DNA of 64,000 nt from Nitrospira sp. (GTDB lineage Bacteria > Nitrospirota > Nitrospiria > Nitrospirales > Nitrospiraceae), in contig SWDO01000017.1 in assembly GCA_005116895.1 (NCBI GenBank), forward strand, positions 15,626 through 79,625, given 5' to 3'. The notes beneath the pieces are model-generated. The model was not told where the DNA came from. It saw only the letters and a list, made by a program, of their open reading frames with translations, and made no database searches. The translations under genes and the position numbers were made by a program. Shown piece after piece: positions 1,931 to 20,001 of the stretch. Every line of letters starts with the position of its first letter. Positions within the stretch are counted from its first letter, which is position 1.

Positions 1931-2264
1931 CGGAGATGGTGCGGTCAATACACCGAGAGTAACCCATCCGGGCCGTCGCCGATCCTAGGACGACGGCCCG
2001 GACCCTCAACCCAAACGTTTTCCTCGCTCAAATCAAATCAACCTCATGTTTCTGTTGCATCTAGTGCAGCAGCCGGCACCGATCAGTAGAGGATCTCAAC
2101 TAGATCTTGGTAAGAGTGATATCGAAGACAACCAATCGTTTGTTTGTCCCAATTCCCGGTCGCAAGACTGATTGAAAAGGCCAGACGGCACACATGCGCC
2201 TACAAAGAATGACAGGTTGAACACCAGATATCACGTGCCTCAATTACTACAACCAGGGAGTACC

Positions 2265-3041
2265 ATGATGAAGCCTTCGATTCTCACGTCCCTCATGATT
2301 TCCGCCGTGCTGTTAGTTTCACCCTCCATCACGTCGGCGGCCACCGTCACCAGCGGGACGTTCACGATGGATCTCGATCGGAATGCTCTCGCGCAGCTCG
2401 TGCTGAATCCGACCGGCACCCCGCCGACGATCTTCCTTGAGGAATTCTTCACGTCGCCGTCGCTGACAGGCGCGCAAATCAATGACACCGTCAACACGAA
2501 TCTTGTGCCCGGCAACAGCGAGATTCCCGCCATCGACTTGGCCTATGACGTCACCGGTTCGTCCGTCACGAATCCGGCCGGCCGAGCCATTCAAGCGACG
2601 AACCTCACCTACGATCCGACCGACCTGACCGGCACCGCTACCGGACAGATTGGATTGGGTGGTGTGCTTCGATTTTTGGGAAATTTCGGGGGGATCTTTG
2701 CGACCGGTGACTATGCGCTGAAGTATGATGCCACACGCGTCGGCAATGCGGCGGGCGGTTCAGGCTGGTATCTTCTCAATAACTATGGGTTCCCCGTTCC
2801 AGGATGGGATCTCACCGATGTGACGGCATCAAGCGATCCCTTTTCCCTGTCCTTGTCCGGAACGTTGAAATGGAGCCCCGAGGTCACCTCGGCGTTTTTC
2901 CACTCAAGCGACATCGGCAAGTCGATGGGCACCTTCACATTTGTGTCGCCGGTTCCACTCCCTGCCGCCGCCTGGCTGTTCGGCAGCGGTGTGATCGGGT
3001 TGGTCGGAGTCGCACGCCGTCGGATGGCACATCGTGGCTAG
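2265..3041 (+). CDS. VPLPA/PEP-CTERM sorting domain exported protein
   Basis: Signal peptide at MMKPSILTSLMISAVLL; C-terminal VPLPAAAWLFGSGVIGLVGVARRR (sorting motif, TM, basic tail). The called ORF begins at 2172; the 2265 start is preferred. Confidence 0.8.
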   Translation: MMKPSILTSLMISAVLLVSPSITSAATVTSGTFTMDLDRNALAQLVLNPTGTPPTIFLEEFFTSPSLTGAQINDTVNTNLVPGNSEIPAIDLAYDVTGSSVTNPAGRAIQATNLTYDPTDLTGTATGQIGLGGVLRFLGNFGGIFATGDYALKYDATRVGNAAGGSGWYLLNNYGFPVPGWDLTDVTASSDPFSLSLSGTLKWSPEVTSAFFHSSDIGKSMGTFTFVSPVPLPAAAWLFGSGVIGLVGVARRRMAHRG

Positions 3042-4107
3042 CGATAGAAGATTCCGTTGCCGAATCCTGGTGGCTGCGGCCTTGGCCGCAGCCATGTTCC
3101 CCGTTTCTCTGGTCCATGCGGCACTGCTCCCCCTCGACACAGTGGTCGTCGGCAATGCCGGGAATCTCCCGGACCCCTTGACCGGACGAGGCTCGGTTGC
3201 GTACACGTACCACATCACCAATACCGAAGTGACGAATGCGCAGTACGTCTCATTTCTGAACACTGTCGATCCGACCGGCAGCAACCCGCATGATGTGTAC
3301 AACCCAGACATGACGAATGCGACCGGCTTCGCGGTCGTCAAAGGCGGAATTGACTTCATCCCGATGGCGCCGGATGGAGCCAAATATGCCGCGAAACCCA
3401 ACTATGGCGATAAGCCGGTCAACTATGTAAGCTTTTACGACGCCGCGCGATTCGCCAACTGGGTGATGACGGGCGACACGGAAAACGGATTTTATACCTT
3501 CGCCGACACGAACACGCTCGCAAGCCAGGGCGTGCATGGTCCGGATCAGCACAACGACATGAACTGGGTCGCAATTCCCGATCAGGATGAATGGTACAAA
3601 GCCGCCTTCCATAAGAACGACGGCGCAACCGCGAACTACTATCTCTATCCGACCAGCAGCAATGACACGCCCGTCGTCGCCACGGCCACACCGACCGGCG
3701 TGATTGCTAATCCCGGACCCAACGTCGCTAATTACAACTTCGGTGCAAATTGGGACGGTACGGTCGATCTCGGTCATGTCACGTCCGTAGGAAGCGCCGG
3801 CCCAGCCAGCACCAGCCCATATGGCACATCCGACCAGGGCGGCAATGTCATCGAGTGGGTCGACGAGGTGACCGGTGCTTATCGCGTGATGCGTGGGGGA
3901 TCGCTCTGGCTCGGAGAAGAAACGCTGCGGTCCACATCCAGCAGCTTCTACAACCCTCATGTGGGAGGCAGTAGTCTTGGCTTTCGACTCTCCAGCCTCG
4001 GGCCGATCAGCGTCGTGCCGCTTCCGGGTGCTGCAGCGCTCTTTGCAACCGGCTTACTCGGGCTCCGTGCGTTACAGAGACGTCTCGCCTCAGAAGAAGT
4101 TTCTTGA
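3034..4107 (+). CDS. SUMF1/formylglycine-generating-enzyme-like domain protein with PEP-CTERM-like C-terminus
   Basis: ITNTEVTNAQYVSFLN..., DEWYKAAFHK, GGNVIEWVDE, VMRGGSLW, LGFRLSS are typical of the FGE-sulfatase fold; C-terminal VVPLPGAAALFATGLLGLRALQRR; GTG start overlaps the end of the upstream CDS. Confidence 0.82.
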   Translation: MASDRRFRCRILVAAALAAAMFPVSLVHAALLPLDTVVVGNAGNLPDPLTGRGSVAYTYHITNTEVTNAQYVSFLNTVDPTGSNPHDVYNPDMTNATGFAVVKGGIDFIPMAPDGAKYAAKPNYGDKPVNYVSFYDAARFANWVMTGDTENGFYTFADTNTLASQGVHGPDQHNDMNWVAIPDQDEWYKAAFHKNDGATANYYLYPTSSNDTPVVATATPTGVIANPGPNVANYNFGANWDGTVDLGHVTSVGSAGPASTSPYGTSDQGGNVIEWVDEVTGAYRVMRGGSLWLGEETLRSTSSSFYNPHVGGSSLGFRLSSLGPISVVPLPGAAALFATGLLGLRALQRRLASEEVS

Positions 4108-4330
4108 GTCATTCGTATTTTTTCAGGCATCTCCTGCCACACATCTCAAAAACCGAATGCGGCTTTGCATGGCGCCACAGTGAACATTGTTCACCTCGGG
4201 CAATTTTCATCACATATGTTGCATCCGGCAGCAACCATGGCTCGCTTCCTTGTCCCTGCACCTGTTAACACTTCTCTTTCAAGGAATGGACCCCTCTGTA
4301 ACGGAAGGCTAGCGACGGAAGGCGTTACGC

Positions 4331-5338
4331 ATGAAGAAAGCGCTGATTACCGGGATTACGGGTCAAGATGGGTCGTACTTGTCGGAGCTGTTACTGGGGA
4401 AGGGCTACGACGTCTACGGCATCATCCGCCGGTCCAGCTCGTTCAATACGGGGCGACTCGATCCCATCTATGAAGATCCGCATGTCCCCCATCGGCGCCT
4501 CCACTTGGTCTACGGTGATCTCAACGACGCCAGTTCACTCAATCGGATCTTGCGCACCGTCCAGCCCGATGAAATCTACAATCTCGGGGCCCAGAGCCAT
4601 GTGCGGGTCAGCTTCGATATCCCAGAATACACGGGTGAGATTACGGGATTGGGCACCGTTCGGCTGCTGGAAGCGATCCGAGAGTCCGGACTCAAGCCGA
4701 AGTTCTATCAAGCGTCCTCCAGCGAGATGTACGGGAAGGTCTTGGAGGTGCCGCAGAAAGAAACGACCCCGTTCTATCCTAGAAGCCCCTATGGTGCCGC
4801 CAAGGTCTATTCCTATTGGATTACCGTGAACTATCGGGAGGCCTACGATCTGTTTGCCTGCAACGGCATTCTGTTCAATCATGAATCGCCGCGGCGGGGG
4901 GAAACCTTCGTGACGCGAAAAATCACGAAGGCGGCAGCCCGGATCAAGCTCGGTCTTCAACACGAACTGTTTCTGGGCAATCTCGATGCCAAGCGGGACT
5001 GGGGGTTTGCGGGGGACTATGTCGAAGCCATGTGGATGATGTTACAAGCGCCCACGCCAGATGACTATGTGATCGCCACGGGTGAAACTCACACCGTCAA
5101 GGAGATGCTTGAACTGGCGTTTGACCGGTTGCAACTAGATTGGACAAAACACGTCAAGATCGATGCCGCGTACTATCGCCCGACCGAGGTCGATCTGCTC
5201 ATCGGAGACGCGAGCAAGGCGACGCATCAGTTGGGGTGGCAGCCGAAAGTCCGGTTCGACGCACTGGTTGCCATGATGGTGGATGCGGATTTGGCGTCGG
5301 AACGAGAGCGGCTCGAAGGTGTAGGGAAGAAACGTTGA
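4331..5338 (+). CDS. gmd: GDP-mannose 4,6-dehydratase
   Basis: [45 protein letters not shown] Rossmann motif; strongly characteristic. Confidence 0.96.
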
Positions 5339-5344
5339 TGGATG

Positions 5345-5362
5345 GAGGTTAGAGGTTGGAGG
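5345..5362. repeat. left inverted repeat flanking the four-helix-bundle gene
   Basis: GAGGTTAGAGGTTGGAGG, reverse-complement match 17/18 to CCTCAAACCTCTAACCTC at 5784-5801. Confidence 0.75.
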
Positions 5363-5763
5363 GAAGAATAGACGCCACAGTTCCAGGATACATCTTTCCG
5401 TTTGAGAAGCTGGAGGTATGGCAGGAGTCTCTCGATCTGGCTGATTACGCATTGGAATTGCTGGAACGTATTCCCTTAAGCAAACACTTGCGCCTAACCT
5501 CCCAACTGGAAGGAGCAGTCGTTTCAGTTGCGCACAACATCGCCGAAGGAAAAGGCCGGCAACACAGAAAAGAATTCTTGCAGTATTTGAGTATCGCCCA
5601 GGGTTCGTTATATGAAACTGTTACCTTGAACGAAGTATTCCGCACACGACAGATATTTCCCGAAAGAGAATTGGCTAATATCCGTAACAAGGCTGAGTTG
5701 ATCGATCGCAAGCTAAACGGCTTGATGAATTCAGTGAGAGGAAAGAGTCGACCGAGGCTCTGA
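5356..5763 (+). CDS. four helix bundle protein (S23 / 23S rRNA intervening-sequence-protein / bAvd-like family)
   Basis: FEKLEVWQESLDLADYALELLERIPLSKHLRLTSQLEGAVVSVAHNIAEGKGRQHRKEFLQYLSIAQGSLYET is the family signature. Confidence 0.92.
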   Translation: MEGRIDATVPGYIFPFEKLEVWQESLDLADYALELLERIPLSKHLRLTSQLEGAVVSVAHNIAEGKGRQHRKEFLQYLSIAQGSLYETVTLNEVFRTRQIFPERELANIRNKAELIDRKLNGLMNSVRGKSRPRL

Positions 5764-5783
5764 CCTCAAACACGTTCCGTCAG

Positions 5784-5801
5784 CCTCAAACCTCTAACCT
5801 C
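5784..5801. repeat. right inverted repeat flanking the four-helix-bundle gene
   Basis: CCTCAAACCTCTAACCTC, see 5345-5362. Confidence 0.75.
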
Positions 5802-5810
5802 AGGCGGTAA

Positions 5811-6776
<966 letters not shown>

Positions 6777-6954
6777 TGTAACGAGGGACCCCACTCGAAG
6801 GCAGAGTCACCTACTTCACCAAGAGCAATCATTCAATGACTCATCCCCGCCTGAATCCTCTCACGGAACGCCCTTCTGCTGCCCGCACCTATACTTCGAC
6901 CAACCCCCATTCTTTCCTTCTTGTCGGGCCTGCGCTACAGTACGGCATCGTCCA

Positions 6955-8775
6955 ATGATTCTCACGCATCGCCTACTCGCTCTTGTTTGCCTGCTGGCAC
7001 CGATCGGCCTACCCTCGTTTGCGCGAGCAGAACTCCTGCCCCGCCATGTGGTGATCCTCGCCAATGCCAAAAGCCCTGAGAGCCTCGGCGTGGCTCAGCA
7101 TTATGCCGCTGAGCGAAATATCCCTACAGACCACATTATTCCCCTTGACCTGCCGCTTCGAGACTCGCTCACTTATCGCGAGTACGAGGAGCTCGTTGTG
7201 ACTCCTCTGCGGCGCACGCTAGAAGATCGCGAGCTGTCTTCGTCCGTTCGCGTGGTGGTTACGACCTATGGCGTACCGCTGCGCGTAGAGGCGCCTCAGC
7301 TTTCGGCAGAGGAACGCCGCTGGCTCACGGACGCGCAGCAGCTGGTCAAGACAAGCCGGACGAGATTGGAACACTTGAAACAGCAGTTCGAGCTGCTTGT
7401 GCCAGAATCATCGAACCCACAGGACACATCGTCGTTCCCTGCGCAAGATATCCTCGAAGCAGCTCGGACGGCAGCTCTCGTATCACAAGTCGATCGGACA
7501 TGGCGATCCACACTTGACCAGGTTCGACAGCAGAATGGCCTGGAGGCCGAGCGATCGTCGAAGAAGCTGCTTCATCTGACCCAGCAGTATGGTGGATGGG
7601 GCATCATGCTTCAGAAGCACACAGGATCGGAACACCCCCCTGCGGCTCCGGATACGCCTCAAGCCGCGGCGTGGCGCAAACTGCTGGAACGCTCCAGCCC
7701 CTTATGGACAGGACTTGGCCGTCGACCGATCTCCTCCGAACGGTTATTGATCTACCGCTGGGCCGAACGACTGTTCGGTGTGCAAGGAGTACTCGAACTT
7801 GCGAGCGCGGAAGTCGATCTCCTTACCTATACCCATGCCGCGGCCAGCCTAGACAGCGAGTTGAGCCTGCTCTGGTGGGATCGAGATCTGTACTCGGTAG
7901 CTTGGCGCTGGGTGAACCCACTTGTTCAAGACCTGCCGGCGAATCAGGAGGAACTGCCCATCCTGATGGTGAGCCGGCTTGATGCGCCGACCGCTGAGCT
8001 GGCAAACGGTCTCGTCGACAAGGCAATCCATGCCGAGCGGCATGGATTGCGCGGAACCGCATATCTTGATGCGCGCGGGCTGAAACCGAAGAGCCCCAAC
8101 GATGCGTATGGTCATTACGATCAGAGTCTTCGCGATGCTGCAGACTTCATCACGCAGCAGAGCGATTACCGAGTCGTCCTGGAGAACACCGAGAAAACGT
8201 TTTCGAATTCCAGTGAAGCGCCGGACGTCGCGCTCTACATCGGATGGTACCGATTGCGGGCCTATGAAGATGCCTTTACCTTCAACCCTGGAGCAATCGG
8301 CTATCACATGGCATCGGCCGAAGCCCTCACTGTGCATGATCGTGGCGAACGAGGCTGGTGCAAGAATTCGCTGGAACATGGGATTACCGCCACGCTAGGC
8401 TCGGTGGGAGAACCATACCTGGATGCGTTTCCCGAGCCGGCACGGTTTGCGGCCTTGCTGCTGACGGGACGATACTCCCTCGTTGAGATCTATTACTTGA
8501 CCAGCCGCTATGTCAGCTGGCAGATGGTGCTCTTTGGCGATCCGCTCTACAACCCAATGAAGGGACGTTCGCCCATCCCTTCATCGACCTCACCGCCGAT
8601 CGCTCCTTCTGATCGGCGATTAAGCAATCCCCAGGCGCAACTGATGCGGGCCCATGACCTCGCACGCGCGCGGCAGAAACAATTGATCGCCCTGCTTCTA
8701 CAAGCCGAGCAAGCGTTCACAGCTCCCTCCTCGTCTTCTCCACCCATCTCTCCATCGATACAACCCGCTCAGTGA
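6955..8775 (+). CDS. TIGR03790 family protein
   Basis: LLPRHVVILANAKSPESLGVAQHYAAERNIPTDHIIPLDLP and MVLFGDPLYNP match my recollection of the family. Confidence 0.78.
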   Translation: MILTHRLLALVCLLAPIGLPSFARAELLPRHVVILANAKSPESLGVAQHYAAERNIPTDHIIPLDLPLRDSLTYREYEELVVTPLRRTLEDRELSSSVRVVVTTYGVPLRVEAPQLSAEERRWLTDAQQLVKTSRTRLEHLKQQFELLVPESSNPQDTSSFPAQDILEAARTAALVSQVDRTWRSTLDQVRQQNGLEAERSSKKLLHLTQQYGGWGIMLQKHTGSEHPPAAPDTPQAAAWRKLLERSSPLWTGLGRRPISSERLLIYRWAERLFGVQGVLELASAEVDLLTYTHAAASLDSELSLLWWDRDLYSVAWRWVNPLVQDLPANQEELPILMVSRLDAPTAELANGLVDKAIHAERHGLRGTAYLDARGLKPKSPNDAYGHYDQSLRDAADFITQQSDYRVVLENTEKTFSNSSEAPDVALYIGWYRLRAYEDAFTFNPGAIGYHMASAEALTVHDRGERGWCKNSLEHGITATLGSVGEPYLDAFPEPARFAALLLTGRYSLVEIYYLTSRYVSWQMVLFGDPLYNPMKGRSPIPSSTSPPIAPSDRRLSNPQAQLMRAHDLARARQKQLIALLLQAEQAFTAPSSSSPPISPSIQPAQ

Positions 8776-19653: not shown

Positions 19654-20001
19654 TGGTGGAGGCGAGGGGAGTTGAACCCCTGTCCGAAGATCGTCAGTGC
19701 ACTGTATCTACATGTGTAGCCGACAATTTAAATTTCGCAGCCGTCCACGCCAGTCGGCAGGCTTAGAACAGCCGCTAGCCCAGAAAGTTCTCGTCCTCAG
19801 CCGCTGAGCACCGGCCTTGGACCAGCCCGCTGCATCGCGCTCTTCCACCCCCGCGGGCATCAGATGGAAGAACGTCGCAGTTAATTAAGCTGCGAGTGCC
19901 AGTTCTTGATTGGCAGTTGCGTTTTCTCGGACTTTTACGAGTTCCCGAGAGCTCGACATGCAACAGTGACCTCAGTATCCCCGTCGAAACCGGTCGCCCC
20001 C
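19654..20001 (-). ncRNA. ssrA: tmRNA (transfer-messenger RNA)
   Basis: On minus strand: 5' GGGGGCGACCGGTTTCGACGGGGATACTGAGG, tag region GCC AAT CAA GAA CTG GCA CTC GCA GCT TAA (ANQELALAA), 3' GACAGGGGTTCAACTCCCCTCGCCTCCACCA; acceptor stem pairs. Confidence 0.96.

Follow-up and report, generated by a model that had tools for sequence, protein, structure and literature searches.

The 457-bp segment that lies between gmd and fcl, two genes of a fucose-sugar operon, in the window (the whole 64-kb stretch of DNA analysed here) probably belongs to a widespread class of small elements, mobile or insertable, whose insertion would be assisted by the S23 protein that they encode. On our best reading of the sequences, the S23 gene and its heptamer arms behave as a mobile DNA unit that has as yet no name and no recognisable transposase. 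The unit has a defined structure, it is prevalent, its site is empty in most relatives, its gene and arms are inherited together, it gives rise to derivatives that lack S23, and its gene lies in sense orientation under purifying selection.

The insert between gmd and fcl

The original prediction described a 135-aa S23-like ORF, bracketed by inverted repeats, between gmd and fcl, and this description is borne out. The left arm (GAGGTTAGAGGTTGGAGG, positions 5345–5362, forward strand) reads inwards as the heptamers GAGGTTA GAGGTTG GAGG, and the right arm (CCTCAAACCTCTAACCTC, 5784–5801, reverse strand) is its inverted copy; the 18-nt arms are complementary at 17/18 positions (94%) and are separated by a spacer of 421 nt. 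The four-helix-bundle S23/IVP ORF (5356–5763, forward strand) begins at a TTG codon inside the left arm, which also holds a Shine–Dalgarno-like GGAGG/GAGG. Directly past its stop codon, a single isolated heptamer, CCTCAAA, can be read from the sequence (5764–5770, reverse strand). The ORF matches PF05635 (23S_rRNA_IVP) over positions 1–106 of 106 at 4e-27 (94.9 bits, cut-off 33.8) and TIGR02436 (four helix bundle protein) at 1.4e-25 (89.7 bits, cut-off 24), and the sole solved structure that it matches by sequence is PDB 2gsc (Xcc0516; 4.7e-16). It is the only ORF within the unit, which encodes neither transposase nor recombinase. The host-operon gene upstream, gmd (GDP-mannose 4,6-dehydratase; 4331–5338, forward strand), matches TIGR01472 above the cut-off; the gene downstream, fcl (GDP-L-fucose synthase-like; 5817–6776, forward strand), has as its top NCBIfam match the GDP-L-fucose synthase model NF047922, below that model's cut-off.

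Arms were scored by the best ungapped inverted repeat that the 5′ and 3′ flanks form with each other, with a threshold of 12 or more. The insert scores 15, the maximum over 2459 S23-sized positions tiling the rest of the window is 11, and a score of 15 is reached in 0.3% of random segments of related genomes; the inverted repeat is not due to chance. There are no other heptamer inverted repeats elsewhere in the window, and the arm sequence has no second occurrence in the genome when up to two mismatches are allowed. The original prediction had recognised neither that 7-bp tandem units make up the arms nor that such units, with different letters, are present at every S23 gene of the genome.

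Heptamer arms at other S23 genes

The genome has six PF05635 genes, and inverted repeats with a 7-bp period bracket 6/6, the sequence being different at each (GTGATGG; GGGGTTA/GGCGTGA; GAGGACT; GAGGTTA, in the window; AGTTTCA/CGAGTTT; ATCTGAT). For relatives we used as a control the 5′ flank of one S23 gene paired with the 3′ flank of another. Arms at or above threshold are found at 65% of 63 S23 loci in relatives (control 2.4%), at 79% of 70 loci across Nitrospirota (3.7%), and at 66% of 79 usable loci in a GTDB-wide collection (3.3%) that spans Bacillota, Bacteroidota, Planctomycetota, Acidobacteriota, Proteobacteria, Verrucomicrobiota, Patescibacteria, Chloroflexota and others. On cyanobacterial plasmids, 12/12 S23 loci have arms against 18% in the control, which is inflated because several of these arms are related. 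Random segments of related genomes pass the threshold in 1.2% of cases, and in 0.13% if a 7-bp period is also required. The expectation that other standalone S23 genes would also be flanked by inverted repeats is therefore sustained, and S23 genes inside inverted heptamers whose letters differ per copy occur in a dozen bacterial phyla.

The distribution of S23 among 39 relatives is patchy, and genomes of the genus have between 0 and 10 copies. Arms above threshold are missing from roughly one quarter to one third of the S23 genes, and some of these genes are well conserved and syntenic; the syntenic S23 genes L026 and L059 (genomes G012 and G018) are 93% identical, have no detectable arms and are possibly a domesticated copy. 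In two species of the genus, two S23 units with unrelated heptamers lie in opposite orientation about 0.7–1.5 kb apart (G000:C6 34080–35379 and G021:C6 23175–25335).

Period and phase of the arms

The arms of different copies have in common only a period of 7 and a phase; their letters differ. Self-identity within arms is 0.47–0.59 at lag 7 and 0.43–0.57 at lag 14, against about 0.22–0.35 at other lags. Alignment of 125 different arms by phase gives the inward-reading unit [T/G]NNNN[A/C]G, with its final G at 95% and the preceding A at 75%, and the phase score is 271 compared with 174–177 for column-permuted arms. Mismatches between the two arms of an element avoid the G position (8 in about 490) and fall 52–71 times at each of unit positions 1–4. 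The conserved letters are held symmetrically: the G is kept only in the 5′ arm 4 times and only in the 3′ arm 3 times, and the A is lost 16 versus 15 times between arms.

The complementary ends of an intervening sequence (IVS) would have to form an RNA stem under selection; the arms here can pair, and their mismatches comprise 77 G.U and 97 A.C (p = 0.15), that is, no wobble excess. The counts do not support RNA-level pairing as the force that matches the arms. Most simply, the arms are read as the symmetrical ends of a DNA unit, and no constraint on an RNA helix can be seen. Because G.U is not in excess, the G and A are kept equally in both arms, positions 4000–7200 of the window have no Rfam match and hairpins without S23 exist, the match between arms favours the DNA level, as in the ends of an element, over an RNA stem that would serve excision. 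Arms within an element are more alike than the same arm between orthologues (0.84 versus 0.71, p = 0.019) by a measure that favours that outcome, and orthologues share one arm mismatch (GGGCT versus GGACT in G000, G005 and G011); these figures hint only faintly that the arms of one element are strongly homogenised by conversion.

Empty and filled sites

The gmd–fcl site is empty in 10/12 relatives (spacer 8–48 nt) and the insert is found only in G000 and G011, so that the segment is indeed an insertion, as had been proposed, and not a gene common to the locus in all relatives. Both inserts carry GAGGTTN heptamers though their S23 genes stand at dS 1.65. Likewise, two genomes, G690 and G697, have a unit between accB and accC, where six congeners have an empty site. 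At both loci the relatives are too diverged for a target duplication to be called. Four empty sites on plasmids of Nostocales place the insertion, with base resolution; of all empty sites examined, just two show a 5-bp duplication (GTAAT and TTCTA). The Trichormus plasmid site reads AAAAAGTAATTAAC when empty and AAAAAGTAAT-AAATCAGAATTC...(S23)...GAGTTCTTCTTT-GTAATTAAC when filled, with a 5-bp duplication; that of Nostoc ATCC 53789 pNsp_a reads GGTTCTAGGTTATG when empty and GGTTCTA-AATCAGGAG...(S23)...TGGA-TTCTA-GTTATG when filled. The two further plasmid sites, with TraM and integrase neighbours, occur filled and empty with no clear duplication, and on another plasmid the TraM site holds a heptamer hairpin without S23. 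We considered whether the heptamers are copied from the target site and rejected this, as the empty Trichormus and Nostoc plasmid sites have no heptamers. Many S23 insertions are common to several species, so that movement in Nitrospira need not be recent.

Gene and arms travel together

At unrelated sites, the similarity of heptamers rises with that of the S23 proteins, from about 0.3 below 50% identity to 0.49 at 60–70% and 0.67 above 70%, and the observed correlation was reached by 2/1000 permutations. Since similar S23 proteins at unrelated sites have common heptamers, gene and arms travel together. S23-bearing genomes also contain hairpins that lack S23 and have related heptamers. On Nostoc pNsp_a (L262) they carry the heptamers of the local S23 element, one being nested inside another, and G167 has one with the AGTGCTG of its S23 unit; they are also present in G005 and G021. 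None was found in 200 kb of G081, a genome free of S23, or in the 264 kb scanned of the window's own genome.

Passages of Rehm et al. (PMC4692102) describe GGGAATC heptamers in Xanthomonas, with 70 convergent pairs in X. campestris, and a text search of that article finds no mention of S23 or four-helix. If the heptamers belong to S23, GGGAATC arrays in a genome should be accompanied by an S23 gene inside GGGAATC arms, a prediction that served as a blind test. Just 1/369 gammaproteobacterial genomes (G690) has (GGGAATC)3 arrays, and its single S23 gene, between accB and accC, lies in arms of the GGGAATC type (CGGGAATCGGCAATGGGGAATCGGGAATCG / CGATTCCCTACTCCCCATTCCCGATTCCCG); the S23 gene of its congener G697 is likewise inside GGGAATC arms. 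Among S23-free congeners, 4/6 are without GGGAATC arrays; the other two, G694 with 23 matches in a fragmented assembly and G695 with 4, have arrays and no detected S23 gene. The S23-less GGGAATC hairpins of G690 include L314, whose inner sequence GGGAATCGTTCAAGC is common to the S23 unit, which suggests that L314 is a deletion derivative of that unit. Another such hairpin is apparently at the same site in two species (L315 in G690, L319 in G697), with arms identical down to an odd GGGAATG unit and loops of entirely different sequence. Several of the hairpins in these two genomes (L314–L330) lie directly 3′ of terminator-like hairpins.

The S23 protein

S23 is under purifying selection, with dN/dS of 0.04–0.14 across orthologous pairs (0.10 for the window S23 against the orthologous insert of G011), and the protein must therefore be needed for something. 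Within co-directional gene pairs it is in sense in 103/106. Inverted arms cannot impose such a bias; it implies that S23 has to be expressed from the host operon, or else that antisense copies disappear. We know of no catalytic motif in S23, and of no nuclease motif. Dependence on a reverse transcriptase, as for Avd, was considered and rejected, since some genomes rich in S23 are without RVT_1; the domain is absent in 8/16 S23-bearing genomes (G005, G011, G016, G021, G143, G229, G320 and G690). A solved S23 relative is a ring of five four-helix bundles (Lin et al., as related in PMC3936711 and PMC4990558).

Discussion

Each unit is an S23/IVP gene between two inverted degenerate heptamer arrays which, read inwards, have the form ([T/G]NNNN[A/C]G)n; their letters vary between elements and agree between both arms of one element. 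We propose that S23, translated from the mRNA of the host operon, would recognise the phased heptamers of its own lineage, and a pentameric ring and a repeated heptamer phase would suit each other. By this binding S23 may enable a nuclease, a recombinase or replication to place the unit, or a derivative without S23, between the genes of an operon, presumably with a short target duplication of about 5 bp.

Three other explanations have to be weighed. The original prediction held that the repeats would bring the ends of the operon mRNA together exactly like an IVS, in a mobile unit that can live in protein operons; insertion, arms and sense orientation in operons stand, and the likeness to an IVS in RNA finds no echo in the wobble counts, the Rfam search or the hairpins that lack S23. 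In such an element the arms would pair in polycistronic mRNA, RNase III would cut the stem and release the S23 segment, and the DNA unit would spread as a selfish insertion. The sense orientation in co-directional operon pairs, the start codon and ribosome-binding region inside the left arm, and a predicted RNA fold in which the arms pair at the base (z −1.96) would all agree with this, and in an IVS with an S23 ORF the flanking sequences are complementary and RNase III makes the cut (PMC4990558). We nevertheless consider it unlikely: G.U pairs not above A.C are contrary to selected RNA pairing, as is the equal retention of A and G in both arms, and since the missing wobble excess argues against selection on an RNA stem, excision like that of an IVS is only partly supported. 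The left arm could also be read as a regulatory site, at which a TRAP-like S23 ring binds AG-phased repeats in the 5′ leader of its own RNA, so regulating the translation of S23 and of the downstream gene, the right arm being the competing strand and ordinary recombination the main means of spread. The strong 7-nt phasing with a near-invariant G, mostly preceded by A, the position of start codon and ribosome-binding site in or adjoining the left arm, the purifying selection and the sense orientation are what such a regulator would show; but the phase is kept equally in the right arm, where the RNA has the complement, the same heptamers recur in hairpins without S23 dispersed over the genome, and new sites gain gene and arms together, and we regard this explanation as unlikely too.

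Alternatively, an unrelated host transposase or integrase might mobilise the unit as a MITE with a passenger gene, S23 being cargo with a role in, for example, defence or maintenance. Inverted ends, two 5-bp duplications, S23-less derivatives, a protein without nuclease motif, and the frequency of units on conjugative plasmids and near CRISPR genes are all compatible with cargo. The ends of transposases are, however, normally conserved in sequence, and these arms keep only period and phase; moreover, the heptamer letters track the S23 lineage and are common to S23-less hairpins, suggesting that the arms are read by S23 itself. We judge mobilisation as cargo to be unlikely, and favour insertion assisted by S23.

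The unit resembles several known systems without coinciding with any. The 23S rRNA IVS of Leptospira and Coxiella (about 430 nt) has an S23 ORF between complementary sequences (PMC4990558), that is, the same protein family and a similar layout; the present unit, in contrast, lies in a protein operon and not inside a 23S rRNA gene, its arms are heptamer arrays with letters that vary per copy and no sign of selection for RNA pairing, and it has S23-less forms. Heptanucleotide repeats are described in passages of PMC4692102 (STRR in heterocystous cyanobacteria, GGGAATC in Xanthomonas, GGGGA(C/T)T in Nostoc) and PMC4679880 (TAACTGA in Beggiatoaceae); these have the same unit length, are intergenic and often form convergent inverted pairs, and the GGGAATC type flanks S23 in G690 and G697. 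They differ in that here they form the arms of units with and without S23 under a common phase rule, and those passages do not name S23. With REPIN/RAYT systems (REPtrons) the unit shares a conserved gene in inverted repeats and, in the same genome, dispersed gene-less hairpins that share sequence with those repeats, as in Nostoc pNsp_a, G167 and G690, but S23 (PF05635) is not an HUH tyrosine transposase, the repeats are degenerate heptamer arrays, and S23 genes with differing arms can be numerous in one genome. MITEs and insertion sequences likewise have terminal inverted repeats, a short target duplication (seen here at two sites, with empty sites at several loci) and non-autonomous derivatives, whereas the S23 unit is without a transposase and its ends are not conserved between copies. 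Structural homology has been suggested for BPP-1 Avd (4DWL) and Xcc0516 (2GSC) (PMC10053308); S23 has the same fold as the Avd of diversity-generating retroelements, but its units need no reverse transcriptase.

Tentatively, we suggest that S23/IVP could be the recognition, and perhaps the mobility, factor of transposase-less elements, spread phylum-wide, whose ends are set by period and phase rather than sequence, that they might be a major source of the unexplained heptanucleotide excess, and that the rRNA IVS and the S23 genes of cas operons might be special cases. Two puzzles would then be joined, the role of free-standing S23/IVP proteins and the excess of heptanucleotide repeats in many bacterial genomes; in published open-access text we found no link between S23 and heptamers. 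It would be unusual for a mobile element to keep its identity, while its letters drift, through ends that are recognised by their spacing and not by their sequence. S23 genes near cas genes were earlier taken as a CRISPR-linked family (PMC3936711), and the 23S rRNA IVP is listed among the domains of CRISPR-linked candidates (PMC10910872). On cyanobacterial plasmids, the S23 units in cas operons (L157, L164 and L166; cas6–cas4 and cas10–cmr3) have heptamer arms, and because these are of the same kind as elsewhere we caution against reading such genes as CRISPR components; the reported association may be insertion hitch-hiking.

Other features of the window

Just 5′ of gmd, two secreted proteins (2172–3041 and 3034–4107, forward strand) end in PEP-CTERM/VPLPA-type sorting tails (VPLPAAAWLFGSGVIGLVG and VPLPGAAALFATGLLGL). 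A tmRNA gene at 19654–20001 (reverse strand) encodes the tag peptide ANQELALAA.
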